IMG/VR virus record: IMGVR_UViG_3300021962_000603
Span: 1-25,001 of that record
DNA from: a virus
Reading direction: 5' to 3' (one strand)
Length of the DNA: 25,001 bases
In this document: piece after piece, positions 9,036 through 23,647 of the stretch
Layout: every line of letters starts with the position of its first letter
Position numbering within the stretch: position 1 is the first letter of the stretch
Translations under genes and position numbers: made by a program
The notes under the pieces: generated by a model
Databases searched by the model: none
The model's input: the letters and a program-made list of their open reading frames with translations, nothing else
What the model was told of the DNA's origin: nothing

Positions 9036-10613
9036 TTACTTGCCGGCTACAGCCAGCGCAGCACCTTTGTTAAAACTGGGACTCCAGGGACTATTAGCCT
9101 GCTGTAATCCCTTACTCTTGCTCCATTCATAGCCAGCACGATGTCCCGAACAGTCTTTAGTGCACTCACTGCCCAAAAACTTTAGTTCATTCAGTTCATC
9201 TTTAAATCCGCTCAAGTTGCGCTCAACCTGACTGACCCAAGCACTAACATCACTGGAACCAATTTCTTCCACATCGCCTACAAATTCAGCAACACTATCA
9301 ATGGCGTCACCTACAGCAAAAGGTCCATATTTTTGTAATAAGTCTGCTCGCTGCCTTAAGATGCGGTTTGTAATAGCATTGGCCACAGGATTGTCTTCTT
9401 GGCCTTCGTCCACACCTTGCTGTTCATGCATATCGCGAAGCTCTTTATACTTGTCTAGTAAGTCTTTGTGTTTGCCAATCTCAGTTGATTTCAATCCATA
9501 GCGAGCAGTTTTAGCGTTGTCTAAATGATATTTGGCTCTCTTATGATCACCACGTTCATGGGCATCGATAGCCTTCTTCATAGTTGTGGCAAACGACGAT
9601 TCCGCTACACCTTGTAGTTCTTTTTGTGTGGCGCCTGCTTTACGAGCAGCTTCAGCATCTTTAGAATCTTTTGTCTTGCGATATTTTGCTAATAATTCTT
9701 TGCGGGTGCCACCTTGACTTGGGGGATTGTAATCTGTGGCACTTGCGGTTTCATCCACACCGTGTTCAGGCTTAACATCCACAACCTTAGCCATACTATG
9801 ATGCTTTAGGAAACGCTCACGAGCAGAACGAGGACCAGTCATACCCCGAACACGGAACTTTTTAACCTTACCGTCTACTTCAGCAGTGACAATGTAATCG
9901 CGAACCATTTGAGCAGCGGCTTGTAGACCACTTGGATCTAATGCTGCTTCATCCATATCGTCACGGAACTCACCGCTGTCGTGCATACGTGCTTCTTCTT
10001 CGTCACTATCAGCATAGTCGTTAAAACTTACATCGCTAGAGTGAAAACTATGCTTACCGTGATTGTATAAGTTTACAATAACAAAACGCTTGTCTTGACC
10101 AAAATCATCAATAACGCCAGTTGCACCATTGAACTCAACGTTGCCAGTGATAACAACATCATCACCAATGTTTAAGCCTTCTGCGGATTCCGCCACACCT
10201 TCTTTTACGCTGTCAATGATTGCTTTAATTTGCTTCAAGTGATTTAATTTACTTGCTAATTGTTTAGCATTAGCATATTGGCTGCCAGATGTTGTGCGCT
10301 CATAGTCGCCATATCTTTTTAATTCATTTGCAACTTGTGTAATTTCAGCATCAATGTTAGGATGCTTTGCTGCCCAACCTTGTGCAATGCGCTGGTCTCT
10401 TTCGCTACTTTGCGCATCACCTTCACTCATACCCGAGCGTAGTTTCTTGCTAAACTCCTGAGCGCTTTTCTTTTCAGCTTTTTGGAAACGGCGTTCAATG
10501 TCTTTTAACCCGCGTCTGTGTTCGCGATCAATTTTCTTATCTTGTGCCGCAAGTTTATCTATAACATCCTGAAAAGGATTGGCATTTTCATTGAAAAGGT
10601 CGTTTAAGTTCAT
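9036..10613 (-). CDS. Modular 525-aa protein with GVAE/GVDE sites, putative head-packaged polyprotein
   Basis: This charged multidomain protein contains four short tetrapeptides: GVAE (ending at residue 142), GVDE (288), GVAE (338) and GVDE (403). They split it into segments: a basic helical N-terminal region (15-135), a KOW/SH3-like beta segment LNIGDDVVITGN and following (147-196), an acidic stretch, a basic segment with GGTRKELLAKYRKTK (301-315), a helical segment (340-400) and a C-terminal module with CTKDCSGHRAGYEWSK. The N-terminus, MNLNDLFNE, resembles capsid-targeting peptides of T4 internal head proteins. V-x-E is close to the (I/L)-x-E preference of T4 prohead protease gp21, so cutting into modules is inferred. 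The start overlaps the previous stop (TAATG), with GAGGAAG upstream. No enzyme active site was recognised. Confidence 0.8.
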   Translation of the reverse strand: MNLNDLFNENANPFQDVIDKLAAQDKKIDREHRRGLKDIERRFQKAEKKSAQEFSKKLRSGMSEGDAQSSERDQRIAQGWAAKHPNIDAEITQVANELKRYGDYERTTSGSQYANAKQLASKLNHLKQIKAIIDSVKEGVAESAEGLNIGDDVVITGNVEFNGATGVIDDFGQDKRFVIVNLYNHGKHSFHSSDVSFNDYADSDEEEARMHDSGEFRDDMDEAALDPSGLQAAAQMVRDYIVTAEVDGKVKKFRVRGMTGPRSARERFLKHHSMAKVVDVKPEHGVDETASATDYNPPSQGGTRKELLAKYRKTKDSKDAEAARKAGATQKELQGVAESSFATTMKKAIDAHERGDHKRAKYHLDNAKTARYGLKSTEIGKHKDLLDKYKELRDMHEQQGVDEGQEDNPVANAITNRILRQRADLLQKYGPFAVGDAIDSVAEFVGDVEEIGSSDVSAWVSQVERNLSGFKDELNELKFLGSECTKDCSGHRAGYEWSKSKGLQQANSPWSPSFNKGAALAVAGK

Positions 10614-11314
10614 TATGCTTCCTCTATGTAGTCAGCACTTTCGTCTTGTTTTTTGCTTCGTGCAAGATACATTTCCAATGCCATTTGTGCTTGGTCTAAA
10701 TTTTTAAAGCGTGACTTTGTTGCACGACCATTGTGGCGCACTTCAAAGCCACATAGTTCATCGCCGTGTATTTCACAGATACGACCATCTTCTAGCGTGA
10801 TTGTTTTAACGGGCGACGACTCAGTGTATATAGGCTCTTCTACTGGAGCAGTAGGCATTTGGATCACTGGCTCCTCGTCAGTGGGATTTTCAGCCACAGC
10901 AGTAATTTGTTTGGCAATAATGCTACGGTCTTTATTATTTTTTTCTTTGATGTCGCTGTCGCTTTTAGTTTTTTCTTTTAAGTCTGTATCTTTCTTTTCA
11001 GTAGCAATACTGTCAAGATATTCAGCAAAAGATTTTTTAACTTTTTCTAGTTTGTCTTCACTGGTGACTGCTTCTTCGATTTTTTCTTCGTCTTCTTCCT
11101 CAACGCTTTCATTGGCGCCAACCATGTAGCCTGCGCTGGGTGCTTTTTTATTTGGATCGCCGCCTAGCACTGGACCTTGCTTGGGCATGCTAAACAATGC
11201 TGGCATCTGTGGCACAGACTTTTGTTGACTGTTTAGGCCAGACTTAACAGAAGCAGGTGTAATGCTGCCTTCAATTACAGCCAGGCGTTGCATTATAGTG
11301 TAAATTTCATCCAT
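10613..11314 (-). CDS. Acidic 233-aa protein, putative head-associated component
   Basis: The protein begins MDEIYTIMQRLAVIE, has a low-complexity Lys/Glu/Asp-rich middle (residues 70-140) and ends with a compact domain containing CEIHGDELCGFEVRHNGR and a helix KNLDQAQMALEMYLARSK. Two candidate prohead-protease-type sites are visible: VIE followed by Gly at residue 15-16, and AVAE followed by Asn in the middle. The C-terminal domain looks like a small beta-hairpin plus helix module, similar in style to the repeated modules at the end of the 1440-residue protein. It starts 2 nt after the Dps-like stop with a good AGGGAA ribosome-binding site, and its stop overlaps the start of the 525-residue gene. 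No catalytic motif. Inferred to be virion-associated; not proven. Confidence 0.75.
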   Translation of the reverse strand: MDEIYTIMQRLAVIEGSITPASVKSGLNSQQKSVPQMPALFSMPKQGPVLGGDPNKKAPSAGYMVGANESVEEEDEEKIEEAVTSEDKLEKVKKSFAEYLDSIATEKKDTDLKEKTKSDSDIKEKNNKDRSIIAKQITAVAENPTDEEPVIQMPTAPVEEPIYTESSPVKTITLEDGRICEIHGDELCGFEVRHNGRATKSRFKNLDQAQMALEMYLARSKKQDESADYIEEA

Positions 11315-11316
11315 GA

Positions 11317-11757
11317 TTATTCCCTAACGTCCTTTAGAAAGCTACGCAATTGCCAAGCATACTTGTTTTGCTGACTCAGTCGTTCAGCAATAAAGTTGGC
11401 AATGTCTTGTTTGTTTTCAGCTTCAGCATCAGCAAAACAACTGTTCAATAGGTCTACCATTGTTTGGCTGTCTGCCAGTAGTTCTTGGATCATTAGTTTG
11501 GCCCGGGGTATTTTTGTTTGGCCGGGTATTTGTGTCAATTCCTGAAAGCGTTCTAAGCTGCCAGGAGCGTATTCGTCTAAACTTCGTATATACTCAGCCA
11601 GTGGATCAATGGCTTCGTACGCATCTTGGTATATCTCTCCAAAAAAATTGTGTAACTGTGCAAAGTCGCTGCCTTCAACGTTCCAGTGAAAGTAGTGAAC
11701 TTTTAGATAGTAGGAAAACTGGCTGGCCAGTAGTGTTTTTAGTTGATCAGTTAGCAC
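11317..11757 (-). CDS. dps: Dps-family ferritin-like DNA-protection protein
   Basis: This 146-residue protein matches Dps, the dodecameric mini-ferritin that oxidises and stores iron and shields DNA from peroxide. The di-iron ligands appear intact and correctly spaced: His24 in FHWNVEG, His36 in QLHNFF, Asp51 and Glu55 in AIDPLAEY, the same spacing as His51, His63, Asp78 and Glu82 of E. coli Dps. Four-helix-bundle heptads continue to the C-terminus; the long Lys-rich N-terminal DNA-binding tail of E. coli Dps is absent. The start is GTG, overlapping the preceding 64-residue gene by 11 nt. It sits among putative head-packaged proteins but has no capsid-targeting-like N-terminus. It could protect virion DNA or lower peroxide stress in the host. 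Confidence 0.9.
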   Translation of the reverse strand: MLTDQLKTLLASQFSYYLKVHYFHWNVEGSDFAQLHNFFGEIYQDAYEAIDPLAEYIRSLDEYAPGSLERFQELTQIPGQTKIPRAKLMIQELLADSQTMVDLLNSCFADAEAENKQDIANFIAERLSQQNKYAWQLRSFLKDVRE

Positions 11758-11941
11758 GACGTTTCTTTCCTTTTTTCATATAACTTGGAGTATTTGGAGT
11801 TGCATCCGTAGTGTATTTACCAGAAAAGAAGCTGCCGCCGTTTCTACTAACCATGCCCAGCGGAGCAGCTACTGGTGCTATACCACCTGCGCTAGTGGCG
11901 CCAGCTGACGCATTTTCGCGAATAAATTCGTGTGCTTTCAT
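11747..11941 (-). CDS. Small basic protein with capsid-targeting-like N-terminus
   Basis: This 64-residue protein starts MKAHEFIRE, very close to the T4 internal protein III capsid-targeting peptide MKTYQEFIAE, which is cut after Glu by the prohead protease. The body is rich in Ala, Gly and Ser and ends in a strongly basic tail, MKKGKKRRAN, suited to binding packaged DNA. These are the features of a T4-type internal head protein: short, targeted, cleaved and basic. Its ATG overlaps the stop of the 93-residue gene (ATGA), and the first 14 nt around the start, TACACAATGAAAGC, are repeated at the start of the 62-residue gene nearby. Function after injection unknown. Confidence 0.7.
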   Translation of the reverse strand: MKAHEFIRENASAGATSAGGIAPVAAPLGMVSRNGGSFFSGKYTTDATPNTPSYMKKGKKRRAN

Positions 11942-12219
11942 TGTGTAATTTTTAAAATATTGTTGGTAATGCGTCCGGGACCGTGGTCAACACGGAGGTT
12001 GTTTATGTGCAATGTTGCTACAGTGGGATCAAGCAATTGATAACTGATAACGTATTCCCCAGGTTCTGCTTCAATTTGGAGCATTTCTTCAAGATACTCG
12101 TTGGTCCACTTCCATGTGCGTTCAGCAAACAGTTCGTCATCAACATACACACGGTATACAGGCGGTGTGCCCGACCAAGTGCAATCAAGATCACACAGTA
12201 CACGAACAAATTGTCTCAT
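11938..12219 (-). CDS. Small beta-rich hypothetical protein (93 aa)
   Basis: The 93 residues alternate in a beta-sandwich-like pattern: VYRVYVDDELFAERTWKW, then a short acidic helix, then GEYVISYQLLD and LHINNLRVDHG. This resembles small carbohydrate-binding or jelly-roll modules, but no specific family is recognised. No signal peptide. The ATG at 12217-12219 has AGG just 1 nt upstream, too close for a normal ribosome-binding site, and a TAAATA motif four bases before the start codon. The stop overlaps the next gene as ATGA. Possibly a virion decoration component. Confidence 0.7.
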   Translation of the reverse strand: MRQFVRVLCDLDCTWSGTPPVYRVYVDDELFAERTWKWTNEYLEEMLQIEAEPGEYVISYQLLDPTVATLHINNLRVDHGPGRITNNILKITQ

Positions 12220-12237
12220 CCTGTATTTAGCTACAGT

Positions 12238-12426
12238 TTATTGAACTTGTTTGATAGAACCTATGTGCCAGTCTTGTATATTATATTGGGTTTTTAAGAT
12301 GTTCCGGGCTACAGTAATGTTTGGAGCCCAAGTTGTTACGTTAACCAAAGAAACATATCGTGGGTTTTCAATACGGATTTTAGCAATCCATTGCTTGGCT
12401 GACCCGACAATTTCTTTGGCTTTCAT
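12238..12426 (-). CDS. Small hypothetical protein (62 aa), MKAKEIV N-terminus
   Basis: This 62-residue protein begins MKAKEIVGSAKQ, similar at both protein and DNA level to the start of the 64-residue capsid-targeting-like protein. The rest, with WIAKIRIENPRYVSLVNVTT and a following helix ARNILKTQY, looks like a compact alpha/beta fold. No catalytic motif or membrane segment. No clear Shine-Dalgarno is present; a TAAATA motif lies seven bases before the ATG. It is separated from the SGNH-like gene by 33 nt. Function unknown. Confidence 0.6.
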   Translation of the reverse strand: MKAKEIVGSAKQWIAKIRIENPRYVSLVNVTTWAPNITVARNILKTQYNIQDWHIGSIKQVQ

Positions 12427-12459
12427 TGTGTATTATTTACCAGATAAATGGTCATAATT

Positions 12460-13446
12460 CTATGCATTGTGCCCATATACTTGATAGTATCTTAGAATCA
12501 TTGAATCTGCAAAAAATTTGTGTGATAGTAGTCCGGGATGGCTGCCGTCAGAACCCAGGTCAATATAATGATCATCGTGGTTCTGCCCAAAAATTCCATG
12601 TAATGGAATAAAATTCGGCATTCTTTCCATGTCTGACTCAATGCCTTTGATTAGTGTTGCTAAAATAAATTTAACTCCGATTTTATTACAAAAATTTATA
12701 ACTTGGTAAATCGACGTTATAGATTTGTACTGTGTATGGTCAGACAAAAAGTATTCTTTAGTTATTAACTTTGCAGCCAGACTGCTTGCGTGACTTTTGT
12801 TTATATTTGTAAATTTCACCGACATCGACATATCGTCCCAAAATGAAAATCTTTTTGGATTTGTAATCCCCCAAAATAAAATATCATTTTTTTCTAAGTC
12901 GGACCGCAAGATCTGATCGGCTGCCCACTCAATTGAACTCCCTGAGCGTGTCAGGAAAGAAACTGGAAGATTTAATTTTTCAGAAATTATATTTCCATAA
13001 CGTTCGTGTTGTTGAACACCCATTCCGTCACTTATACTACATCCAGCAATCCAAATTTGCGGTTTTTCTGATCTTTTTGTGTCAGCAAGTTCCAGTGAAT
13101 TCTTGGCTATCCCCTTTGCTTCATATCCATGAACAATTTTTGTTGGGTCCTTTGAGAATACTGTTAGATACGATTCGATCCATTCTTTTTGCTTGCTAGA
13201 TTGAAAGAGAGATTGATCAGACCATTTTTCAGGAGGAGCATATATTATTCTGTTTGCCTGTCTTAAAACAGATGCAAATTGTACCAAATTGTCAAGGTCG
13301 CCAATACTGATATAGTAAGTGCCCGGTGATAGTTCTTTGTAATTTTTGTTGGTAATTAATACTGCATCAAGATCATGTTTTTGTGCTGTTTCTGCCAAAT
13401 ACGGAGTTATATCGCCAACAAAAATTGTAATTTCTTCGGTGGCCAT
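12460..13446 (-). CDS. SGNH/GDSL-like hydrolase
   Basis: The second half of this 328-residue protein follows the SGNH hydrolase layout: IWIAGCSISDGMG (block I, GCS replacing the usual GDS, with the candidate nucleophile serine), RSGSSIEWAADQIL (block II glycine), FWGITNPKR (block III Asn) and DGSHPGLLSH (block V Asp and His). The N-terminal 120 residues contain a separate alpha/beta segment. SGNH enzymes remove acyl groups from lipids, sugars or glycans. No signal peptide is present, so it acts in the cytoplasm or in the virion. The gene is preceded at 6 nt by the secreted-protein gene and looks AT-richer than the modular genes nearby. It may trim O-acetyl groups from host glycans; substrate not known. 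Confidence 0.65.
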   Translation of the reverse strand: MATEEITIFVGDITPYLAETAQKHDLDAVLITNKNYKELSPGTYYISIGDLDNLVQFASVLRQANRIIYAPPEKWSDQSLFQSSKQKEWIESYLTVFSKDPTKIVHGYEAKGIAKNSLELADTKRSEKPQIWIAGCSISDGMGVQQHERYGNIISEKLNLPVSFLTRSGSSIEWAADQILRSDLEKNDILFWGITNPKRFSFWDDMSMSVKFTNINKSHASSLAAKLITKEYFLSDHTQYKSITSIYQVINFCNKIGVKFILATLIKGIESDMERMPNFIPLHGIFGQNHDDHYIDLGSDGSHPGLLSHKFFADSMILRYYQVYGHNA

Positions 13447-13452
13447 TGAATA

Positions 13453-14082
13453 CTACTTTGTAGATTTAGCGGCGTTCTTTTCCTTTACAGCACCCTCGGG
13501 CATGTAGGGAAAACTTACAGGATGTCGAAAACATGCTTTAGGATCGCCTTGCCCCGCTTCGATTAAAAATGCTGTTTCGGCGGGCACTTGTCCCATAGGG
13601 CAATAGCATGTGGCAATGCCATTTGGTCCCTTTTCGCAATTCCAGCTAAAACAGTTGCTGGCATTGTAGCCTTGCTTTAGATCGGCGCTGCATTTTTGAA
13701 CCACAACTTTCATGTCTTTGGGCTTGTGGCTGAAGTTATTGGCTTCTTGTGGATACTCTAGCCGCGGCCAAAATGTGCTCCATACATGTTTGCTGTCAGT
13801 GGGCTCGCAACTGCCCTTCATGTTGCCCATGCTGGTGTCAGCAATATTGGGACCGTTTAATATGGGGCAACGGCACACCACTTCAGGATATGAATTGCCA
13901 GCTGAGTTAGTAATCATTCGCTGCGTACCATCGGCATTCATTACAGGCTTACAAGTACTGGCTGCACAAAGCGCAAATTCGCCTTGGCAAATGGTCAATC
14001 CCGGAGGTGCTTTGGGTTTTGATTGTGCAAATGCTGCACTAGCCAGTACTAAACTGGTTAAAAATATTACTAGTTGTTTCAT
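13453..14082 (-). CDS. Secreted cysteine-rich protein (Sec signal peptide)
   Basis: The first 20 residues are a classic signal peptide: MKQ, a hydrophobic core IFLTSLVLASA and an AFAQ cleavage region. The mature protein of about 190 residues has 12 cysteines, an even number, in paired motifs such as CRCP (70-73) and CYCP (159-162), suggesting a disulfide-bonded periplasmic or extracellular fold made of two related Cys-rich halves. The C-terminus is Lys-rich. It begins one nucleotide after the stop of the lipoprotein gene (TAACATG), so the two are co-translated and probably act together in the host envelope. No enzyme motif is recognised. Candidate roles are superinfection exclusion, envelope modification or an inhibitor; all inferred. 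Confidence 0.8.
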   Translation of the reverse strand: MKQLVIFLTSLVLASAAFAQSKPKAPPGLTICQGEFALCAASTCKPVMNADGTQRMITNSAGNSYPEVVCRCPILNGPNIADTSMGNMKGSCEPTDSKHVWSTFWPRLEYPQEANNFSHKPKDMKVVVQKCSADLKQGYNASNCFSWNCEKGPNGIATCYCPMGQVPAETAFLIEAGQGDPKACFRHPVSFPYMPEGAVKEKNAAKSTK

Positions 14083-14083
14083 G

Positions 14084-14971
14084 TTAATCCGCCTTAATTT
14101 GTACGTTACTTATACTCATTGATGTGGTGCTACCACACATTGCACCCCATGAGCATGAACCATTCCACCAGCCCTGGGGTTGCCCGGGACTCCAACCGCC
14201 CTGCCAAATACTAGCATGAATCCAATAACCATTGTTCATGCTGGTTTTAAGATCGTTCATGTTAATAGAACCGCTGCCACTATATCCAGACCCAACAGTT
14301 GAATCATACACTACCACGCTGTTGCTCCCTTGAGTGTATGTGACTTTATATGTGGGAGTGTCACCATAGGTAAAGTCAGCAGTCATTTGTACTGGTTTGG
14401 TAATGTCAATAATGCCGGCTAACTTGTGCGATCCCCCTGATGGATTGTCGCTCATTTTACTAGAATCATAGCAGCTGGTGTTCAATGCTTTGTCAGTATA
14501 GCTAAGTTCAAATCGTTGTGGTGCATTTATGCCACCGTTGCCTGTGTGAATTGTAGTTTGAATTACTGCGTTGGCGTTGGATTCAAGCATGTCAATTTCA
14601 CGGCAATTTTGATCAGTCAAGTTGCCCCCAGCATCACAATAGTCTTTGCCCGAGTTTGAACGGGTGGGATTGGTTGGATTGCTTACCATATAAAAAGTAT
14701 GATTTACAAAATTACTAGTGGCTCGGCTGAGATCAACAGTGGCTGTAATTTGTGTGATGTTTTTGTATGATTGCTTGCTTACCACTCGTCCCGCGGCACA
14801 CGAAGACGTGCCAAAAGACACAGCGCCCGGTGTATTCACATCAGGATTGGTGTCGCAACTTTTATAGTCTACTACAAATGTTGGTGTGTATGTGGTTTGT
14901 GCTGTGCTTGTTACTGTTGGTTTACATCCGACTAATAATGATAAAAATACCAGTGTTACTAATTGTTTCAT
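14084..14971 (-). CDS. Lipoprotein with GH16/GH7-like glucanase motif
   Basis: The start is set at ATG 14969-14971 because GGAAG lies four bases upstream; an earlier TTG is less likely. The N-terminus MKQLVTLVFLSLLVGC is a lipoprotein signal with lipobox LVGC. The mature part is rich in Thr, Ser, Asn and Gly with beta-strand alternation, and contains CREIDMLESNA (residues 123-133), whose ExDxxE (Glu125, Asp127, Glu130) matches the catalytic signature of clan GH-B beta-glucanases, followed by a TIHTGN strand. The C-terminal half has WIHASIWQGGW and a terminal strand, as in concanavalin-type glucanase folds. It may bind or cut a beta-glucan at the cell surface. The fold assignment is motif-based and moderately secure. 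Confidence 0.68.
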   Translation of the reverse strand: MKQLVTLVFLSLLVGCKPTVTSTAQTTYTPTFVVDYKSCDTNPDVNTPGAVSFGTSSCAAGRVVSKQSYKNITQITATVDLSRATSNFVNHTFYMVSNPTNPTRSNSGKDYCDAGGNLTDQNCREIDMLESNANAVIQTTIHTGNGGINAPQRFELSYTDKALNTSCYDSSKMSDNPSGGSHKLAGIIDITKPVQMTADFTYGDTPTYKVTYTQGSNSVVVYDSTVGSGYSGSGSINMNDLKTSMNNGYWIHASIWQGGWSPGQPQGWWNGSCSWGAMCGSTTSMSISNVQIKAD

Positions 14972-14988
14972 GTTACTTCCTTCAATTT

Positions 14989-14996
14989 TATTTAAC
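14989..14996 (-). promoter_or_regulatory. Candidate late promoter before lipoprotein gene
   Basis: The minus strand reads GTTAAATA, with the TAAATA core shared by T4-type late promoters, 17 nt before the lipoprotein ATG and in the gap after the 94-residue membrane protein. A GAAGGAAG ribosome-binding site lies between. The first two bases do not match the T4 consensus. Confidence 0.33.
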
Positions 14997-15010
14997 AATA
15001 TAGACGGTCC

Positions 15011-15295
15011 TTACCACCATTTCATTGCCACACCAAATCCAAATACATTTACACAAGCAAAGTATGCTGTCAGGAGCATGGGCCACGGAATGCCCCGGCG
15101 GTAATACGCATACACTCCGGCGATAGAACCAATGAAAAATCCGGGATACACAATACGCATGTCAGGATTGTCAGCAGTTAATGCCAGCGTTAAACTGGCT
15201 CCTACAGTTGTTATAAAACTAACCAGCTCGTAGTAAAAGGCAGTGCGATCGATTTTATAGCTTTGGATCCAAAAGGCTATTATTTTTTGTTTCAT
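15011..15295 (-). CDS. Small integral membrane protein (94 aa)
   Basis: This 94-residue protein shows about three hydrophobic stretches: LVSFITTVGASLTLALTA (residues 24-41), YPGFFIGSIAGVYAYY (50-65) and MLLTAYFACVNVFGFGVA (73-90), with Arg/Lys-rich connections. It is probably an inner-membrane protein with three helices. It could be a holin, since a GH19 lysozyme domain is encoded nearby, or an unrelated membrane protein; the weakly polar loops do not decide. The ATG at 15293-15295 overlaps the stop of an upstream frame (ATGA). No ribosome-binding site stronger than AAACAAACG is visible. Confidence 0.75.
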   Translation of the reverse strand: MKQKIIAFWIQSYKIDRTAFYYELVSFITTVGASLTLALTADNPDMRIVYPGFFIGSIAGVYAYYRRGIPWPMLLTAYFACVNVFGFGVAMKWW

Positions 15296-15429
15296 CGTTT
15301 GTTGCGTGTTTTGCCTATAAAATTCTGATCATTACCATTACTGTTATTACTGCCACTGCCGCTATTAGTATTAGATCCGACACCGTTTCCTTGATCTTGT
15401 TCTTGTCCATCATCGCTTGCTGCGTGTTT
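15292..15429. repeat. 20-bp near-perfect direct repeat at two gene ends
   Basis: TCATCGTTTGTTGCGTGTTT at 15292-15311 and TCATCGCTTGCTGCGTGTTT at 15410-15429 differ at two positions. Each encodes, on the minus strand, a TRxKR C-terminus followed by an ATGA stop/start overlap. The repeat suggests a local duplication of a gene end, with the 98 nt between copies perhaps a later insertion or a duplicated gene fragment. Confidence 0.8.
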
Positions 15430-15462
15430 CGCCCATGGACATTCCCCATGTGCCATCTTCAT
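15292..15462 (-). CDS. Possible small Gly/Asn/Ser-rich protein (56 aa), overlapping frame
   Basis: A frame from ATG 15460-15462 to TGA 15292-15294 encodes MKMAHGECPWAKHAASDDGQ, then a Gly/Asn/Ser low-complexity run, then NFIGKTRNKR. It overlaps the end of the 100-residue gene by about 50 nt in another frame, and its stop overlaps the start of the membrane-protein gene as ATGA. Its C-terminus, GKTRNKR, copies GETRSKR at the end of the 100-residue protein, which supports it. It competes with the 32-residue membrane peptide frame over the same DNA. Confidence 0.42.
   Translation of the reverse strand: MKMAHGECPWAKHAASDDGQEQDQGNGVGSNTNSGSGSNNSNGNDQNFIGKTRNKR
15315..15413 (-). CDS. Possible 32-aa single-helix membrane peptide
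   Basis: A short frame starts ATGATG, overlapping the stop of the 100-residue gene, and encodes MMDKNKIKETVSD followed by a strongly hydrophobic stretch, LILIAAVAVITVMVMIRIL. A charged N-terminus and one transmembrane helix fit a tiny phage membrane protein, such as a holin or spanin-type accessory. The hydrophobicity may, however, be a by-product of reading a Ser/Asn/Gly repeat out of frame. No clear ribosome-binding site. Confidence 0.33.
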   Translation of the reverse strand: MMDKNKIKETVSDLILIAAVAVITVMVMIRIL

Positions 15463-15712
15463 CTACGCCGCCTGCTCGTGCGTCCTGCTGCGACATTTTA
15501 GCTGTTTCTGCATTCCGTGCAGCGTCGGCAGCTTGTGATTGCCAGCTACTTTCATCATCAACGTTCCCAGTTTCTTCTTCCTCAATGGGCACACAGTTGT
15601 TGACTCGCACGCCACCTTTCATTTTGGTTTTGGGATTGCCAATCTTTTTACCTGACCAGCATTTGGGATCTAGCCGTGTTTTTTCTTCAATTATGATGTC
15701 TTGGATTTTCAT
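15410..15712 (-). CDS. Small protein with capsid-targeting-like N-terminus and GVDE site (100 aa)
   Basis: This 100-residue protein begins MKIQDIIIEE, where IIE is a good prohead-protease-type site and the whole N-terminus resembles a T4 capsid-targeting peptide. It continues with a basic, cysteine-bearing segment, LDPKCWSGKKIGNPKTKMKG, then an acidic stretch, an alanine/glutamine-rich helix and GVDE (residues 84-87) followed by a short tail ending TRSKR. An AAAGGT ribosome-binding site precedes the ATG by four bases, and the gene lies just downstream of the 664-residue GNAT/GH19 protein, which carries the same kind of sites. It is inferred to be an internal head protein cut into two or three peptides. 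No enzymatic motif. Confidence 0.72.
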   Translation of the reverse strand: MKIQDIIIEEKTRLDPKCWSGKKIGNPKTKMKGGVRVNNCVPIEEEETGNVDDESSWQSQAADAARNAETAKMSQQDARAGGVDEDGTWGMSMGETRSKR

Positions 15713-15724
15713 ATGTACCTTTGT

Positions 15725-17719
15725 TTATGTTCGGCTGGTATAGTCCTTGAAGTTTTCCGCACGATCTTGTAACCCCCGCATACCCGGATTGATCATTCGG
15801 GTTACTGCGGCTACGTCATTGTAGTTATCTACATTGGGCTGCACACGATGTTTCCAGTACCACACAGCCACTTGTGCTGCTACTGCTGGATCTTCAACTA
15901 ATTCTGGTCGTTGTTCAAGTGGTAATCCCAGTGCTTGTCCAGCTACTTTGTAGTTGTGTCGCCCGGTCAATTGTATAAACCCACGACCTTTGTAGCGTTC
16001 ACCATCACCAGCAAACTTATTGCCTAGTGCCCGTGCTTTCTTTGGTGCGTGTTTAGGATCGTATTTCCGAAAGTCTAACTTACCGCCAATTTCTTTTAGT
16101 CGTTTAAAGTCCAGTGTTTCGTGGGCGCATTGTGCCATAAACGCTGCTAGTTCAGTGCCGGCTAGACCAGCACGTTGAGCAACAGATTTTAACACATTTT
16201 CAAGTGGACTGTTTGTTATATTTTTTATTTGCGCCGGTGCTTTGGGTTGTGCCTGCTTGGCTGTTTGTGCTTTTTGCACGCCTTGGGCAATGGAACTTTT
16301 TGCAACTGGTGCTTGGATTTGTTTTGCTGGTTGCTGTGGTGCAGGAGCAGTTGCTACTGGAGCGGTGCTGCTTGAACTCCATTTATTAAACGCATCTTTT
16401 GCAGCCATACCACCAGCGCCACCTGCACCAATAGCGCCAGCAATAGCCAAGTTTCCTAGAGTGTCCTTCCAACCTTCTCCGAGTGGCAATGATTGTTTTA
16501 AGAACTGCTCACCTTCACTGGTAACATACCAATATCCGTCATCGTTGATAGCATAACCATTGCTATCTAAACTGTCTAACACGTTGTCATATTCTGCGGT
16601 GCGTGACTCATCTTCGATAAAATCCATACCTAATTTTGCTGCTGTATAGATAGCGTGTAATACTAATATCTTGCCGTAACCCTTACCTTTGTATTCGGGA
16701 TTGACTTCAGCAATGCTGCGTCCACTGTTTGCGTCATATTGATAACCGCCTGCAGGTTTGCCGTTAACTGTCATTTCAGTAGCAAACTTATTACGACCTT
16801 TACGAACTGAAATAGCAACTTGCTCTACTGACTCCGCCACACCTTGCTTCTTTGCCCAGTCGTCTGGAGAAACTTTATTTTTTTCAATAAATCGATCGTG
16901 TAGTTTGCTCGGTGTTATTTTATGATTTTTGGCCACAGTTTGCATCATGTGATCTATGGCGTCATAACTGTGGGGATCTTTAAGATCTTTTTCTAAATCT
17001 TCAACGCTGTCTTCGTTGGCTTTCTTTTTCCCACCTTTCATATTGGCGCACCAGTGATACATTTTGCCTTTTTCGCCTGAGTACTTTTTGGCCTTAGCCC
17101 GCAAGTCAGTTACTGAACCAGCGCAACTTGCGCCCGCTGCTTTTACACGACCTGGGCGACTTTTACCTTTTACTTTACCGTCAGCAAAGTTTTCCGCCAC
17201 ACCTTGTTCCCAGATATTTTTACCCGGTTTGTGTTTGTCCCAGAATGCAGCACCGGCATCTGTTTGCTGTCCACTGCGGCGTATTCTATATCCCTTACTC
17301 TTAACATAATCATACATTGTGGCGGCAATGCCTTGACCACGGAAGCGTTCATCAACTTCTAAGTCTTGTGGATTGAGAACCATGCCTTGACTGTCATAAT
17401 CTATTGTAAATAATACATGTCCTAATTCTCTACTACCTGCTGATGCCTTGACAAATACTTCTCCATCATCATCATCTTTTTGAAGTAAAATGTTTATACC
17501 GCCGTAGTTTTCTCTGTTCTCTGCCACACCAGCGGTGCTGCCCAGTCCTGGTAGTTTTACACCAATAACATCTTGCACCAAGTCCCAACCCTGTTTGTAT
17601 TTTTTCGCAGCGATTAAACGTTTGAGTTCGGCTTTTTGCTCAGCCGTGGCCAATGTGAAAAACTTAAAAGTTTCCATTGCGCCTATGTTACGCTTGTAAC
17701 TCAACTCATTTAATCGCAT
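15725..17719 (-). CDS. Polyprotein: two GNAT acetyltransferase modules plus C-terminal GH19 lysozyme/chitinase domain
   Basis: This 664-residue protein is split by three GVAE tetrapeptides, ending at residues 67, 176 and 296. Module 1 (75-165) is GNAT-like, with VDERFRGQGIAATMYDYV (122-139) carrying the R-x-x-G-x-G/A acetyl-CoA loop. A basic, Cys-containing segment (180-230) and a helical segment (236-290) follow. Module 2 (300-400) is a second GNAT with NPEYKGKGYGKILVLHAI. After a Gly/Ala-rich hydrophobic stretch (421-440) and a Pro/Ala/Gln linker (452-500) comes a GH19 domain (505-660) with AQCAHETLDF (Glu534) and GDGERYKGRGFIQLTGRHNY (Glu574), which cuts peptidoglycan or chitin. The N-terminus, MRLNEL, resembles other genes here. 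A virion-borne enzyme set, processed in the head, is inferred; a simple endolysin would not need the GNAT parts. Confidence 0.88.
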   Translation of the reverse strand: MRLNELSYKRNIGAMETFKFFTLATAEQKAELKRLIAAKKYKQGWDLVQDVIGVKLPGLGSTAGVAENRENYGGINILLQKDDDDGEVFVKASAGSRELGHVLFTIDYDSQGMVLNPQDLEVDERFRGQGIAATMYDYVKSKGYRIRRSGQQTDAGAAFWDKHKPGKNIWEQGVAENFADGKVKGKSRPGRVKAAGASCAGSVTDLRAKAKKYSGEKGKMYHWCANMKGGKKKANEDSVEDLEKDLKDPHSYDAIDHMMQTVAKNHKITPSKLHDRFIEKNKVSPDDWAKKQGVAESVEQVAISVRKGRNKFATEMTVNGKPAGGYQYDANSGRSIAEVNPEYKGKGYGKILVLHAIYTAAKLGMDFIEDESRTAEYDNVLDSLDSNGYAINDDGYWYVTSEGEQFLKQSLPLGEGWKDTLGNLAIAGAIGAGGAGGMAAKDAFNKWSSSSTAPVATAPAPQQPAKQIQAPVAKSSIAQGVQKAQTAKQAQPKAPAQIKNITNSPLENVLKSVAQRAGLAGTELAAFMAQCAHETLDFKRLKEIGGKLDFRKYDPKHAPKKARALGNKFAGDGERYKGRGFIQLTGRHNYKVAGQALGLPLEQRPELVEDPAVAAQVAVWYWKHRVQPNVDNYNDVAAVTRMINPGMRGLQDRAENFKDYTSRT

Positions 17720-17730
17720 ACGTGTTGCTT

Positions 17731-18876
17731 TTATTCGTCAATATAGTTTTTAACCAGCAAAACATCAAATCCGCCAGAAACACTGGCATTGGTGTTTAAC
17801 ACTGATAACACTCTCATTATCATGTCAGTTTTTTCCGGGAATCGAATGCCCCCATATATGACATTTTGGAGTCTAAACGTTGTGCCAATAGCCGTTTGAT
17901 TTAAAATACGCTCTGCTTTCCCAAATTCACGAACCCACCCGGCAACGATAGCTTGATTTGTTTGTGCATCTAACAGCGAAGCACTAAACTCTTTAACATA
18001 TGCAGTATAACCAGCGGGAACAGTATAAGCAGCAATAGCACTTTGTCCTGCAGCCGCGGGCAGGACCATGAATATATTGGCCGTTGTAGTAGTATGCTGT
18101 GCTGTTAAGGTGCCTACATTACTCACCTGACCTGCTGCGGGCGTTTGTACAATGCCTAAACTCATGCGCCAAAATGTCAAAGTAGTTACACCAACACCTG
18201 ATCCATTCAAAGTTACAACTTCATCTATTGGATTGTAATTAAAATCCAAGCCGTATAATTTTACAGTCAAGCCAGCATCTGTCGCGCCGGCGCTGCTGGT
18301 CACAGTCAGCGTTTCGGCAGTGCCTGTTGTGGGGAATCCAGTATAAAAGCCGCCACCGTTCCACACATCTTCGGGACCATCAACGTCAGTGTTGAATCCA
18401 ACTCGATTAACAATAGTACGGCCTTGATATTTGCCTTCGGCTACAAGATCAATTGCGTCCATGCTGCGCACCACAATAGAGTCAGCGTCAAATGACACCG
18501 TGTCATCAAGTCTTGTAGTGGGTATAGCAATTTTGGCACTGGTACTGAGCACGGTTACTACATCAGTAGTGCTGGTGCTCCCGCTGGCGTTTTCAATACG
18601 CAAGCGAAAGTATGGACTGATCGAAACAAAGTTGTGAATTTTGCCTGTCAACACTACATTTGAGTCGCTAATTTGTAAGATTCGTATGGGATTGGTTCCG
18701 TCAGTACTAAATTCAGCATATGCTGTTACTGCCTGGTTGGTGCTCATTGTCGTTGATATGCTGGCATATGGAACTACATAATCCCAGCCACCTGTCCATG
18801 ATTGACCTGTTAGTATGTCAGCAGTGGTGCTGTTGTTTGTGCTTACAGTTCCTGTTTGAGTGTATAAAAAGCTCAT
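17731..18876 (-). CDS. Beta-rich virion protein, tail-fibre or decoration type (381 aa)
   Basis: I place the start at ATG 18874-18876, since GGAGAA lies nine bases upstream and this ATG overlaps the preceding stop (TAATG); an in-frame ATG five codons earlier would sit on that ribosome-binding site. The protein is rich in Thr, Ser, Ala, Gly and Val and made of alternating beta strands over its full length, with no cysteine, signal peptide or membrane segment. It begins MSFLYTQTGTVSTNN, like the MSFYKIWSSF start of its upstream neighbour. Segments such as YFRLRIENASGSTSTTDVVT look like the beta-sandwich domains of virion surface or fibre proteins. No receptor-binding or lyase motif is recognised. 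Confidence 0.72.
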   Translation of the reverse strand: MSFLYTQTGTVSTNNSTTADILTGQSWTGGWDYVVPYASISTTMSTNQAVTAYAEFSTDGTNPIRILQISDSNVVLTGKIHNFVSISPYFRLRIENASGSTSTTDVVTVLSTSAKIAIPTTRLDDTVSFDADSIVVRSMDAIDLVAEGKYQGRTIVNRVGFNTDVDGPEDVWNGGGFYTGFPTTGTAETLTVTSSAGATDAGLTVKLYGLDFNYNPIDEVVTLNGSGVGVTTLTFWRMSLGIVQTPAAGQVSNVGTLTAQHTTTTANIFMVLPAAAGQSAIAAYTVPAGYTAYVKEFSASLLDAQTNQAIVAGWVREFGKAERILNQTAIGTTFRLQNVIYGGIRFPEKTDMIMRVLSVLNTNASVSGGFDVLLVKNYIDE

Positions 18877-19310
18877 TATATTATTCTCCATCCGTTATTG
18901 TATATCATAGCCAGTGCTCCATTGTTGACTGCCAGCGTTGCACCACCAGCATCGTTGTCTATGGTTCCCACTAGTACTATGTTGTTGACGTTGCAATTGC
19001 CGCTTTCGTCTTTAATTGTAATTTGTTTACCGGCCACTGCGCTGGTTGGTAGGGTAACAGTACAGACACCCGCATAGTTTATGCCAACATAGTAGTCATC
19101 AGTAGCCAGTGTATAAGAAGATGTAGTCACCGTGGTTGTATTATATACCGGCGCACCAGTGTTGTATATAAGCGTACCACCGGGTGTTACGCCGTCACCA
19201 ATACGTAGCCGAGGGTCGGCTTCACTGTACCAAATTTTTCCTAAATCTCCTACATACGTGGCTGCATCACCTTTGGTTTTGAAGCTACTCCATATTTTGT
19301 AAAAGCTCAT
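18876..19310 (-). CDS. Tail-fibre-like protein with GDGVTPGG motif (144 aa)
   Basis: The N-terminal half contains GKIWYSEADPRLRIGDGVTP (residues 24-43) followed by GG, a signature common in phage tail fibre and major tropism-type proteins. The second half shows YTLATDDYYVGINYAGVCT and GKQITIKDESGN, a beta-helix-like pattern typical of fibre subunits. It is short for a complete fibre, so it may be a small distal or accessory fibre piece or a neck fibre. AAAGGG precedes the ATG by eight bases. It follows the 1440-residue gene and overlaps the next structural gene by 1 nt. Confident as a virion structural protein; its exact position on the particle is unknown. Confidence 0.82.
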   Translation of the reverse strand: MSFYKIWSSFKTKGDAATYVGDLGKIWYSEADPRLRIGDGVTPGGTLIYNTGAPVYNTTTVTTSSYTLATDDYYVGINYAGVCTVTLPTSAVAGKQITIKDESGNCNVNNIVLVGTIDNDAGGATLAVNNGALAMIYNNGWRII

Positions 19311-19324
19311 TTTAATGCCCTTTA

Positions 19325-22300
19325 TTATCTCATCTCGGGTACTACTTCAATCTCGGCACTTTCTGGTGGAGGATTGTATCGTCCATTTCGAATGGCTGCC
19401 AACAACCATTCTTGGGCTTTGCGGTTAGCATCCCCTTGATTGTTGCCAATGCCACTGAGTCTGTGTATTTCTTGGCCGTTGACTTTAATTATCCATTGTC
19501 CAGTAAACTCACCGCCTGGTTGCTGTGTGCTTGCTGCGGGTTGTGGCTCTTGTTGCTGTGCTTGAGCAGCACGTTGGCGCTGTAGGTCTACAGTAGAACC
19601 AGGTAATGGACCACGGCGTAAACCAATTGAACCACGGGTCATGCCACTATCTCTAACCATTTCGTCTCTATACCTATTACCAATTTCTATAGCCATTTCG
19701 TCGTCGGCAGCATAGTATGTGCGATAAACTTGGCCAGTTTCGCGACTAAACATTTCATACTTTACGCTTTGATTAGAACCAGTGGGTGTTATTGACATTG
19801 GACGATCACGCCTAAATTCTGAATCGCTGCCACCGGCTGGTTGCCCCAATGTCTGATTATCATCACGTTGAGCTAACCAAACTTGATCTGGATGTTCTTG
19901 TCTCCATTGTCTTAACACAATATTGGCATCATCGATGTTAGCCGCCATGAATCGGTAATATACACTGGTTCTATCACTTTCAGGTGTAATAACATAGTTA
20001 CCGTCAGGGTTACTTGGACGACCATTTACTGTTGGTCCCGACCGTTGCCCAACTGCTTGTGGTTCACCTACTGTTGCTCGAACTGGTTCTTTATTGTACG
20101 GTGCAACGGGTTTGGCTTCTAAGTTTGCAGCACTTGCCCAATCTGGATAATTCTCTGGTTGTGTTGCTATTCTAATCGCTTCTTCTTTGGATGACGCAAC
20201 AACTTTAATGCTGGCCATATAACCTGGGCGGCTAACTTCCCACCAAAACTTTTCATCACCAGTATCGCCCTTTTTAACCTTACGCTCTAGTTGTGCTTGT
20301 TTGATAAAACTCTTTAAATCTTCTTTAGGCATTTCACCTGCTACATACTTGGCAAAGTATTCCAATGTGTCTTTGCCCGAGCCATTTGGTGACAGCACTT
20401 TGTATAACTTCTTCAAGTATTCTTGACGATACTTTTTAGGATCCATAGCAGCATCAGTAGCCACAACAAAGCGCAGTAGTGTATTTTCTAACTTGTCTAC
20501 ATTTGCCGCATACTCACCCAACCAATCGCCCCCGGGACTGCGGAATTCAATATAGTTGCCCTTTGTATTGATGCTTGTGTATTTCTGTGTTTCGCCAGAG
20601 TGAATGATTTTAGTTGCCATCGCTTCTAAATTATCTTTCATTTTCTTTAGCAAAGCAGCCGCATCTTCGGGACGCTGATTTATACGATCGCGCACAATCC
20701 TCATAGCACTTTTAGTATATGTATTGGCTGAACGACCAAATTGATCCAGTACATATTCATCGCCTAACAGCAATGCCAGTTTAACATAGTCAAGTTTATC
20801 AGTTGACAAGTCGGGTATGCTAACATTCATATGTAAGCCGGTGGAATCGTTTGTGTACGCACCAACTCTGCCTGCCCACTTTACAACTTTTTCCAAGTCA
20901 TCGAGCATTTCATCTAGTGGTAGCGGAGGACTAATAAACTCAAGACCAGATTCGCCACTATTGTCGGGATCTAAACTGCTGTCAGGTTCAATAACATAGT
21001 CTGTGGCGTTCCGCTTGGCACCGTGATAACTTGATGAGTACTGAACTTTGCGACCAATAGCATCCTCAAAATCCGACGCAATCGATCCTATATCTGTTTC
21101 GGGTTCAGGGTTGTAATAATGTGGCCAAGCGATATCGTGGCTTCCGGAAATATCACTCATGTTGGGATAAACAGCGTCCAGGAATTCTCGCTCTTCAGTA
21201 TTGTTAAACGCTTCTTCCCTGTAATCATCATATGCTTCTTGATGAAAACTGTTGGTATTTTCTATTGAATACTCAACAAAGTTCTTCCAGTCTTCTTTAG
21301 TCAGTTCATGATCTTCGGGTAATTCTAATACTTCTCTAACATCATCGTCGCTGGCATTTTCTTTAACCCAATCCCAGACACGTTCTTCCTCATCCTCTTC
21401 CCAGTTTTCATCTATACGCTCACCTAACCATTCAAAAAATTCATCTTGTAAATTTTCTATTAGGCGATCAACTTCACGGCGGGAGTTGTAGTCATTATCA
21501 TGAAAGAATTCTCTAATGTCAGCCCAACTACGGCTGCGTTGATCTGAATCATAATCAGGTTCTATGTCGCCGTCACCGTAACTATCTGTATCAACACCCG
21601 GAACGATCATTTCAAATTCCATGCCAGCACGAGCGTCAATGTTTCGTGCTAAATCGCGCAAAGAACTAATGCTCATGTTGATTTCAAACAGTGCTTCTTC
21701 GGTTAATGATTCATTTACATTATAAGTAGGATCAGTTTTGACTTTCTTCATGCCCGCCGGTTGTGCAGGATCACGAGGATCAATGTCTGTTATATCCAGA
21801 CCTGTAGCTTCTAAATCTTTAATAAACTTGTGTTCTGTATCTTCGTCGCCGAAACTGATGATAGAACTGGGAGGTCCCTTGCCAAAATCGTGTTTACCAA
21901 GGCCCTTTAAGTTGCTGATGTGTTGTCCCAATTTGTACCAGTCGTATACATCGCTTACATCTACACGCAAAGTACCCTTTGGCATAGTGGGTTTGGATTC
22001 TGGCCCAGGTGGATGATCAGGACTGTAATCTTCAGCAGTCCGGCCAGGTAGTCGCCCTGTTTCTTTAAACTCCCGCAAAGCATTGGCCAGCCCTTTCATC
22101 AACAGTTCAGGATGTCCTTGGCTGTCAGTGTTTAAATTTAATTTGTTGGCTTCTTTACCAGTGGCACCGGGTTTAACATCTTTGGTCAGGGCCATAGACC
22201 AGCGCGGATCACGGGCCTGCTTTTTTGTTGGAATGTACCCCGAGCTTTCGTTGGCGTTGGCAGCACGGCGCAGAATGTTTTTAACACCTTGGCGAGCTCC

Positions 22301-23647
22301 ATATTTTAAATCGTCTTTAGAAATTCGACTGAGATGTACAGCAGATTTAACAGCTTCGGCACCTTTATTAAGTGGTTCAGTAGTGGCGCAACCCGGAGTG
22401 CCTGCTACGCAAGCAGCAGCAAGAGCAGCACCGGCTATACGGTCTCGAACACCTTCTTCGACACTATCAGCTTCAAAAAATTCCGGATGCTTTTGAGCAT
22501 AGTCGCGCATGAGTATGCCAGCACGAGCATTGGCTTCATTTTCCCATTTGCTGCCAGTAGCGCCAGCGTCATCAGGAACATCATCCACTTCATGTTGCCG
22601 TGCGTGGGTCAGTTCGTGTGCCACTGTGCGCAATATGTCCATAACATGACGATCGGCCAGGCTTACTTCAAGCAAGTTTTCTTCAGCGTTGTATCGTCCA
22701 AATGTTTTATTGCGTGCCGACCACTGCGGATCACGTTTAAACTTGACTTGTGGATTGTGTTTAATACCCAACTGTTCAACACAGTAGTTGATAAACGACG
22801 ATACTATTTCACTGGTTGATGGCCGCGGCTTTTCATTTAAGAATGTTTGTGTTGATGGACTAACGCCGTCCCATGTTGAACCAGCATCTTCGTTCTTAAA
22901 TCCATACTTGACATAAGGTTTGACCTGTTCACGCTCTTTAAGACTAAGCTCACGATCACGAGCAGCATTGCGAGCATCAACCAATCGCTTGATAGCACCT
23001 TGATTGCGAAGCATTTTGAATGACAAATTTTCGGGACCAAACTCGCCATGCTTGTCCAATCCAGTTTGGCGCATGTTTTTGATACGCTGCATCAGCGCAG
23101 CCATCTTTTCATAATCACCAGACTCCACAGCACTATCAATGCGTGCCGACAAGTCTTCATATTTGCTACGAGTAGAAATGTCATCTACACCCACATCACG
23201 ACGCTTGGGTACTTCGATCCATTCGTCATTTAATACGCTATAAATTCCTTGGCTAATGTGCTTTTTGTTAGCGTTTTGTACATACAGTTCCACTTGCGAG
23301 CCACCAATGGTGATGTCATGCTGCTCGTTATACTGAAACTTTTTAGCATCAAACAACTCGCGATAAACTTCGCTGGTATCAGCTTGGGGTAAATCCACTA
23401 CTAAATGTAAGTCAATGTCCGAGTGCGGTGTGTAAGTGTAAGCAGCATTAGATCCGCTGACGGTGATGTCTTTAAGTTCATAACCCGAAACGCCTAGAAA
23501 TTCGCGAAAGTCGTCGGCTATTTCCAACAGGTGCTTTCGTACATCGGGCTTGAGCTGCTCGTCAGGCGTCCATAAACGAGGATTTAATCGTTGGTTAAAT
23601 TTAACAGCGTCAGCAAGATTGTAGGAATCTAATTCAAGAATATTCAT
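19325..23647 (-). CDS. 1440-aa multidomain protein: nucleotidyltransferase, metalloprotease, amidoligase-like, C-terminal repeats
   Basis: Domains in order: residues 50-125 carry SGSNAAYTYTPHSDIDLHLV (64-83), the GSx(n)DxD signature of Pol beta-type nucleotidyltransferases, with Glu120 as possible third acid. Residues 270-385 hold a zinc metalloprotease motif, VAHELTHARQHE (342-353), with a downstream WENEANARAG glutamate. A hydrophobic Ala-rich stretch (403-424) follows VEE. Residues 675-1065 look like an amidoligase (COOH-NH2 ligase): AGMEFEMIV, GESGLEFISPPLP (898-910), NDSTGLHMNVSI (933-944) and NYIEFRSPGG (1031-1040). Residues 1130-1440 contain about four divergent 60-70-residue modules. 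LTE and LFE near 648-655 and VEE near 398 are possible processing sites. The gene has no Shine-Dalgarno; a TAAATA motif lies just upstream. Likely a virion or injected effector polyprotein. Confidence 0.82.
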   Translation of the reverse strand: MNILELDSYNLADAVKFNQRLNPRLWTPDEQLKPDVRKHLLEIADDFREFLGVSGYELKDITVSGSNAAYTYTPHSDIDLHLVVDLPQADTSEVYRELFDAKKFQYNEQHDITIGGSQVELYVQNANKKHISQGIYSVLNDEWIEVPKRRDVGVDDISTRSKYEDLSARIDSAVESGDYEKMAALMQRIKNMRQTGLDKHGEFGPENLSFKMLRNQGAIKRLVDARNAARDRELSLKEREQVKPYVKYGFKNEDAGSTWDGVSPSTQTFLNEKPRPSTSEIVSSFINYCVEQLGIKHNPQVKFKRDPQWSARNKTFGRYNAEENLLEVSLADRHVMDILRTVAHELTHARQHEVDDVPDDAGATGSKWENEANARAGILMRDYAQKHPEFFEADSVEEGVRDRIAGAALAAACVAGTPGCATTEPLNKGAEAVKSAVHLSRISKDDLKYGARQGVKNILRRAANANESSGYIPTKKQARDPRWSMALTKDVKPGATGKEANKLNLNTDSQGHPELLMKGLANALREFKETGRLPGRTAEDYSPDHPPGPESKPTMPKGTLRVDVSDVYDWYKLGQHISNLKGLGKHDFGKGPPSSIISFGDEDTEHKFIKDLEATGLDITDIDPRDPAQPAGMKKVKTDPTYNVNESLTEEALFEINMSISSLRDLARNIDARAGMEFEMIVPGVDTDSYGDGDIEPDYDSDQRSRSWADIREFFHDNDYNSRREVDRLIENLQDEFFEWLGERIDENWEEDEEERVWDWVKENASDDDVREVLELPEDHELTKEDWKNFVEYSIENTNSFHQEAYDDYREEAFNNTEEREFLDAVYPNMSDISGSHDIAWPHYYNPEPETDIGSIASDFEDAIGRKVQYSSSYHGAKRNATDYVIEPDSSLDPDNSGESGLEFISPPLPLDEMLDDLEKVVKWAGRVGAYTNDSTGLHMNVSIPDLSTDKLDYVKLALLLGDEYVLDQFGRSANTYTKSAMRIVRDRINQRPEDAAALLKKMKDNLEAMATKIIHSGETQKYTSINTKGNYIEFRSPGGDWLGEYAANVDKLENTLLRFVVATDAAMDPKKYRQEYLKKLYKVLSPNGSGKDTLEYFAKYVAGEMPKEDLKSFIKQAQLERKVKKGDTGDEKFWWEVSRPGYMASIKVVASSKEEAIRIATQPENYPDWASAANLEAKPVAPYNKEPVRATVGEPQAVGQRSGPTVNGRPSNPDGNYVITPESDRTSVYYRFMAANIDDANIVLRQWRQEHPDQVWLAQRDDNQTLGQPAGGSDSEFRRDRPMSITPTGSNQSVKYEMFSRETGQVYRTYYAADDEMAIEIGNRYRDEMVRDSGMTRGSIGLRRGPLPGSTVDLQRQRAAQAQQQEPQPAASTQQPGGEFTGQWIIKVNGQEIHRLSGIGNNQGDANRKAQEWLLAAIRNGRYNPPPESAEIEVVPEMR

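Follow-up and report, generated by a model that had tools for sequence, protein, structure and literature searches.

A 21-bp DNA repeat encoding a predicted prohead protease site marks exchangeable modules in putative cargo proteins of jumbo T4-superfamily phages

Internal proteins of phage T4 that carry a capsid-targeting sequence (CTS) have already been described; the prohead protease gp21 recognises the motif L/I-x-E, and processing takes place at CTS residues 8 and 10 (PMC9026906). T4 IPIII begins with MKTYQEFIAE↓ASVVK, and the cleavage site of the capsid protein gp23 is SFLTE↓AEIGG (arrows mark known or predicted cuts). Multi-protein head proteolysis in a giant phage has been reported (PMC10052503), and Iyer et al. 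2017 (PMC5512222) describe the polyvalent proteins of phages and conjugative elements, which are injected. Here we analysed a 25,001-nucleotide stretch of viral DNA, IMG/VR record IMGVR_UViG_3300021962_000603 (the window), in which several predicted proteins contain the tetrapeptides GVAE or GVDE. These peptides led to a 21-bp DNA repeat, called here the joint, at which modules of putative head-packaged cargo proteins are exchanged in frame between phages.

The proteins studied here resemble T4 IPI-III and Alt in the short N-terminus that some of them carry (MK/R..EF[I/V]xE↓), in a predicted cleavage rule of the L/I-x-E type and in having variable putative cargo behind a conserved signal. Unlike the T4 internal proteins, the putative cargo is also fused in series, with up to seven joints per protein, and the separators include V-A-E, some of them being the 21-bp DNA repeat. 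In phiKZ and SPN3US many head and ejection proteins are likewise cut at x-x-E motifs by the prohead protease, but there individual structural and ejection proteins are processed, and to our knowledge neither a standard DNA joint nor an exchange of modules is described for these phages. Modules of tail-fibre genes and the cassettes of shufflons and integrons are swapped at short repeated DNA sequences in the coding frame. In contrast to tail-fibre linkers, shufflons and integrons, the joint lies in predicted cargo genes, is one sequence dispersed in many phages, involves no inversion and coincides with a predicted protease site. The likeness to polyvalent proteins is that unrelated enzymatic domains thought to be delivered with the DNA stand in one protein; here these are two GNAT domains and a GH19 domain in a 664-amino-acid (aa) protein, and a nucleotidyltransferase-like and an amidoligase domain in a 1440-aa protein. 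From the set of characteristic polyvalent domains (MPTase, ART, DdrB-like ParB etc.) we found only ParB_N, in one relative, and most modules have no Pfam match. Passages of Iyer et al. 2017 ascribe the processing of polyvalent proteins to built-in peptidase domains (PMC5512222), whereas here sites of the prohead-protease type and a DNA joint lie at the module borders. A DNA joint of this kind, dispersed, in frame and coinciding with a predicted cleavage site, was not found described in the open-licence literature; the string QGVAEG was not found in the open-licence literature searched, and a search there for analogous repeats likewise returned nothing useful. An earlier note on this DNA, made from the sequence alone, knew of no description of a modular cargo system of this kind, though it did not exclude one; T4 internal proteins, giant-phage head proteolysis and polyvalent proteins are partial precedents.

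The peptide QGVAE is the translation of one interspersed 21-bp repeat, GAGCAAGGTGTGGCGGAAGGC, which encodes EQGVAEG. We scanned IMG/VR with a codon-degenerate EQGVAEG pattern, with the permuted EQGAVEG as control, and a match was taken as in frame when it lay in an open reading frame (ORF) of at least 100 aa. The pattern was present in at least 120 IMG/VR stretches, and among the matches listed 116 of 120 were in frame; the permuted motif gave 63 stretches in the whole collection, 38 of them in frame. The codons in 215 distinct QGVAE sites were CAA-GGT-GTG-GCG-GAA, and their synonymous positions were strongly conserved by comparison with the same contigs (GCG 89% versus 9%, GTG 87% versus 20%, GGT 95% versus 43%). 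The flanks outside the 21-bp core carried almost no information at these sites, so the repeat has sharp borders. A purely peptide-level motif was rejected because of this synonymous conservation, which indicates that the DNA itself is shared by descent or exchange; and since deviations at the third positions are alike low (5–13%), identity by descent fits better than a structural constraint. With a 17-bp core and at most 2 mismatches, we found 86 copies in the window and in loci that had not been selected by motif, where about 0 were expected. The QGVAE frame was used by 85 of them, and the sole antisense copy (locus L118, 412–428) is possibly an artefact of ORF calling. The consensus can be read without a stop in each of the five other frames as well, and this together with the strict frame argues that the peptide is selected. 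Genomes of bacteria and archaea, 257 Gb in all, contained only 4 exact 20-mers of the repeat, and a bacterial origin was therefore rejected. In two near-complete relatives, QGVAE joints were confined to cargo-type proteins. The earlier note had read GVAE as a cleavage motif at the protein level and had missed the DNA level; for the most part GVAE is what the 21-bp repeat encodes, and the repeat forms a boundary for recombination.

Similarity between phages tends to end at this boundary. In protein alignments between different contigs, 960 alignment edges fell at the joint and 235 alignments crossed it, against 294 edges and 1,118 crossings at random masked sites of the same proteins, a control by which a masking artefact was rejected as the cause of the edges. 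DNA similarity upstream of the joint carried across in 37 of 247 pairs (15%), compared with 193 of 421 (46%) at random sites in the same ORFs, and similarity downstream carried across in 36 of 457 pairs (8%), compared with 208 of 397 (52%). In extreme cases the 237 nt leading to the joint are identical in both members of a pair, which show no relationship past it. Whole modules have moved as well: a module of 459 nt with a joint at either end shows 100% identity between loci L324 and L334 while its neighbours are unrelated on both sides, and both flanks differ in 60 of 99 whole-module matches. Judged by these comparisons, the 21-bp repeat is a frame-preserving joint for module exchange, and it also encodes a predicted cleavage site.

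The prediction of a cleavage site comes from what else stands at module borders. Across 56 related loci a Glu always directly precedes the NFADGK module, whether the module is placed at the N-terminus (for example MRAKEFITE↓NFADGK) or within a larger protein behind unrelated sequence, mostly ending in hydrophobic-x-E. The FDQPY, WSxKYK, KTRLDP and DWQKxNR modules are all found both after a CTS-like N-terminus and after QGVAE↓, starting at the same residue, and three of these four also start behind another [ILVMF]xE↓; joints and CTS-like N-termini thus interchange at module starts. Where it begins a protein, the module follows a T4-like, presumably capsid-targeting N-terminus such as MRAxEF[I/V]xE↓, and in the window a CTS-like N-terminus of about 10 residues ending in [IL]xE is present in a 64-aa protein (MKAHEFIRE↓) and a 100-aa protein (MKIQDIIIE↓). 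Sequence lying downstream of joints was aligned to the collected proteins, which gave 204 internal non-GVAE junctions with Glu at P1. At P3, I, L, V, M or F was found in 165 of them (81% versus a background of 33%; p = 3e-45), and P2, P4, P5 and P6 were below background. The GVAE and GVDE junctions would accordingly fit sites of a T4-type head protease. The V-(A/D)-E variant proposed in the earlier note appears to fall under a wider [ILVMF]-x-E rule and to have no specificity of its own.

The DNA polymerase of the window has 42–50% identity with the polymerases of jumbo T4-superfamily phages (Sinorhizobium phage Phosso, Agrobacterium phage Atu_ph07 and the 121Q/RaK2 group), and IMG/VR holds many contigs with a polymerase 81–91% identical to it, including contigs of 346,856 and 364,404 bp. 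The window, 25 kb long, comes from a jumbo phage of the T4 superfamily, and the group to which this phage belongs is abundant in IMG/VR. Named phages searched with the window system at the DNA level gave no match, and neither did INPHARED searched with the NFADGK module; the WSxKYK module is present in cyanophages. Thirteen long relatives, three of them with a polB 82–85% identical to that of the window, encode a gp23-type capsid protein and an S77 (gp21-type) protease, and gp20-21-22-23 head genes, as in T4, are present in relatives. In the closest long relatives by polB, the gp23 N-termini read ...RKYLKE↓NASAGSTAAGN, where a cut at LKE↓NASAG is predicted. The window's 64-aa protein (11747–11941, minus strand), with the CTS-like MKAHEFIRE↓ followed by NASAGATSAGG, resembles the mature N-terminus that the capsid protein of these relatives would have after the predicted cut (LKE↓NASAGSTAAGN). 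The gp21 rule of cutting after (I/L)-x-E, given in the earlier note, agrees with the literature (PMC9026906), and the comparison it had suggested with the capsid-protein site and the prohead protease, made in the relatives, gave a predicted site that matches the rule and an encoded S77 protease.

The 64-aa gene is overlapped by 11 nt by the gene of a Dps/ferritin-like protein (11317–11757, minus strand), and the two genes could possibly make up a two-gene route for Dps into the head.

S-CREM2 is a cultured T4-like cyanophage with a published virion proteome (PMC10665884). Its virion-associated enzymes have N-termini that resemble the CTS of T4 proteins (MKDFDSFLEE, VKRFDAFLTE, MKNFSSFLTE and similar sequences), and its capsid protein has GLLTE↓APTQ. 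Six S-CREM2 proteins have similarity to joint-bearing polyproteins, and five of them (gp137, gp154, gp156, gp160 and gp208) were detected in virions; the base rate in this phage is 50 of 236 proteins (p = 0.002 for enrichment). Of these virion proteins, gp156 resembles the N-terminal module of the 1440-aa protein in the window (E 7e-41), and gp208 resembles the GH19 part of the 664-aa one (E 1e-28). The detection of these homologues supports the packaging of such modules.

Some further observations concern the cyanophages. The 386-aa protein beside the 664-aa protein (17731–18891, minus strand) is similar to the S-CREM2 virion protein gp176 of unknown function (E 4e-20). S-SM2_108 (L417, 2174–2602) and S-CREM2 gp160 (L421, 28342–29235) contain a stretch that looks like a cyanophage major capsid protein at its mature N-terminus (APTNSxxN.. 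/ GATGFTGAAAPEGPVAGYDP); in S-SM2_108 it sits directly behind a CTS-like start, and gp160 was found in the S-CREM2 virion.

We consider it fairly probable that these window proteins consist of small cargo modules joined in series, most of them unrelated to one another, that the separators [I/L/V/M/F]-x-E↓ at the module borders are cut, most likely by a gp21-like (S77) prohead protease, and that the 21-bp repeat is their exchange joint. Free-standing modules would enter the prohead by means of a capsid-targeting N-terminus like that of T4, which ends in this motif too, and other modules would be fused behind cargo instead of having a targeting N-terminus of their own. The cargo would then be cut into pieces during head maturation and delivered with the DNA. 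The subset of separators encoded by the repeat would supply short homology for recombination between genes and between phages, and a crossover between any two copies would keep the frame and regenerate the predicted cut site. The narrower proposal, that one 21-bp sequence in many phages is both the in-frame crossover site for cargo cassettes and the protease site that releases each of them in the capsid, we regard as evenly balanced between right and wrong. The earlier note's idea of modular proteins that are packaged in the head and cut there by a protease like gp21 finds support in the CTS-like N-termini, the junction rule, the capsid-protein site and S77 protease of the relatives and the S-CREM2 virion homologues, whereas packaging and cleavage themselves we infer. 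If this explanation is correct, unknown small modules of lake phages could be recognised as delivered cargo by a joint or a CTS-like start, which would help in looking for anti-defence and host-takeover proteins. A protein-processing signal and a DNA exchange signal would be united in one 21-bp element, permitting modular protein evolution without loss of frame, and these phages would possess an exchangeable, self-processing arsenal of delivered proteins. Perhaps the joint principle could also be copied to package foreign proteins into phage heads.

Several points weigh against this explanation. The GVAE class has V at P3, whereas T4 gp21 is described as needing L or I there; V is frequent at P3 of the CTS-like N-termini in this phage group. 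The motif [ILVMF]xE is a weak one and is also found within folded domains. The N-terminus of the 525-aa protein (MNLNDLFNE↓) is weakly CTS-like and that of the 664-aa protein (MRLNELSYK) not clearly a CTS. The window makes up the whole IMG/VR record and contains neither a capsid nor a protease gene; gp23 was looked for in these 25 kb and not found. S-CREM2 is a distant relative, its gp208 is encoded next to tail genes and could belong to the tail, and the CTS pattern (a regular expression) used for S-CREM2 was picked after some of the sequences had been seen.

The joint might instead be only a recombination and linker element, an uncut flexible spacer within multi-domain proteins that act intact like polyvalent proteins. 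Neither the DNA-level conservation nor the breakpoints require a protease, and polyvalent proteins packaged intact are known, such as the N4 virion RNA polymerase (discussed in PMC5512222). However, the same modules start directly behind CTS-like N-termini ending in [IVL]xE, the other junctions are constrained to a hydrophobic residue at P3 and Glu at P1, and the use of one strict frame among six stop-free ones indicates that the peptide matters, so that we hold an uncut linker to be rather unlikely.

Two further explanations were considered. The presence of the same short sequence, sharply bordered, in hundreds of unrelated contexts would be expected of a selfish short interspersed element, or of a site for a dedicated site-specific recombinase, tolerated in coding sequence only in this frame. 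This we judge improbable: apart from one antisense match among the 86 copies none is inverted or out of frame, the 21-mer is not palindromic, unlike the in-frame palindromic mobile repeats of the RPE type, its Glu codon falls exactly where CTS propeptides end, and whole modules move rather than the repeat alone. No linked recombinase turned up, and no search for one was made. The codons could also be conserved for a structure in RNA or DNA that pauses ribosomes or triggers recombination, for example a two-tier G-quadruplex (GG-TGT-GG-C-GG-AA-GG), and the joint consensus GGTGTGGCGGAAGG does fit the G2 quadruplex pattern. Yet third positions in the G tracts deviate as often as the loop position or more often (GTG 13%, GCG 11%, GGT 5%), and the common natural variants GVDE and GVAEA break a tract. 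The joint variants do not support a quadruplex as a conserved feature, and this explanation seems to us hardly credible.

In the window itself, GVAE occurs twice (residues 139 and 335) and GVDE twice (residues 285 and 400) in the 525-aa protein, GVAE three times in the 664-aa protein (residues 64, 173 and 293), GVDE once in the 100-aa protein (residue 82) and AVAE once in a 233-aa protein (residue 139), exactly as the earlier note had counted. Elsewhere in the predicted proteins of the window (8,126 aa in all), GV[AD]E does not occur. Composition shuffles gave an expectation of 0.04 tetrapeptides per large protein and reached the observed count in 0 of 3,000 and 1 of 3,000 trials; chance was rejected as their origin by these shuffles, the permuted-motif scan and the frame bias of the copies. 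The nine sites are not one class: six are clear copies of the 21-bp repeat (3–7 of 21 mismatches), one is borderline and two are not copies.

All the following genes and sites are on the minus strand. The 664-aa protein (15725–17719) is composed, according to Pfam and PHROGs, of a GNAT-like module, the NFADGK module, a short module, a second GNAT-like module and a GH19 lysozyme/chitinase. The site AGVAE↓N (17516–17536) is the borderline copy, with 10/21 mismatches to the consensus and the core GGTGTGGC retained. The joint EQGVAE↓N ahead of the NFADGK module (17189–17209) has 3/21 mismatches and matches at all five third positions, and KQGVAE↓S ahead of the second GNAT-like module (16829–16849) has 5/21. 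The idea that the tetrapeptides fall between the domains of the large proteins fits this protein, in which GNAT, NFADGK, GNAT and GH19 are parted by sites, but the boundary ahead of the GH19 part has another hydrophobic-x-E, LGE↓GWKD at residue 413, in place of GVAE. In an AlphaFold model of this protein, itself of low confidence (mean pLDDT only 57), the three GVAE sites all fall in stretches predicted with low confidence.

The 525-aa protein (9036–10613) is a mosaic by blastp: residues 1–64, 138–237, 390–472 and 471–525 each match a different ORF, of different phages. Its joints are KEGVAE↓S (10185–10205; 5 mismatches, core identical), the variant EHGVDE↓T (9747–9767; 6 mismatches), LQGVAE↓S (9597–9617; 7 mismatches) and the variant QQGVDE↓G (9402–9422; 3 mismatches). 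Relatives sought via its own peptides were not found, which is consistent with its mosaic nature. The 100-aa protein (15410–15712) begins with MKIQDIIIE↓EKTRLDPKCW, and in other phages its module stands behind EQGVAE↓. The GVDE within this protein has 11 mismatches to the joint and is no copy of it. The 233-aa protein (10613–11314) is conserved over its full length in close relatives (71–81% identity), and its AVAE (11 mismatches) is not evidently a joint. The 1440-aa protein (19325–23647), with a nucleotidyltransferase-like N-terminal module and an amidoligase-like module, has no GV[AD]E, and its homologue in the relative G028 has a joint.

Two other observations concern the remaining genes, again on the minus strand. 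The motifs DSGGFQ and TLDIPTW in a 522-aa protein (1479–3047), which gave no Pfam match at E 0.01, recall the tRNA-guanine transglycosylase-like DpdA of DNA 7-deazaguanine modification. In the putative cargo region, two adjoining proteins (13453–14082 and 14084–14998) appear to carry signal peptides, and the second also has a lipobox-like LLVGC; both are possible envelope or superinfection-exclusion proteins.

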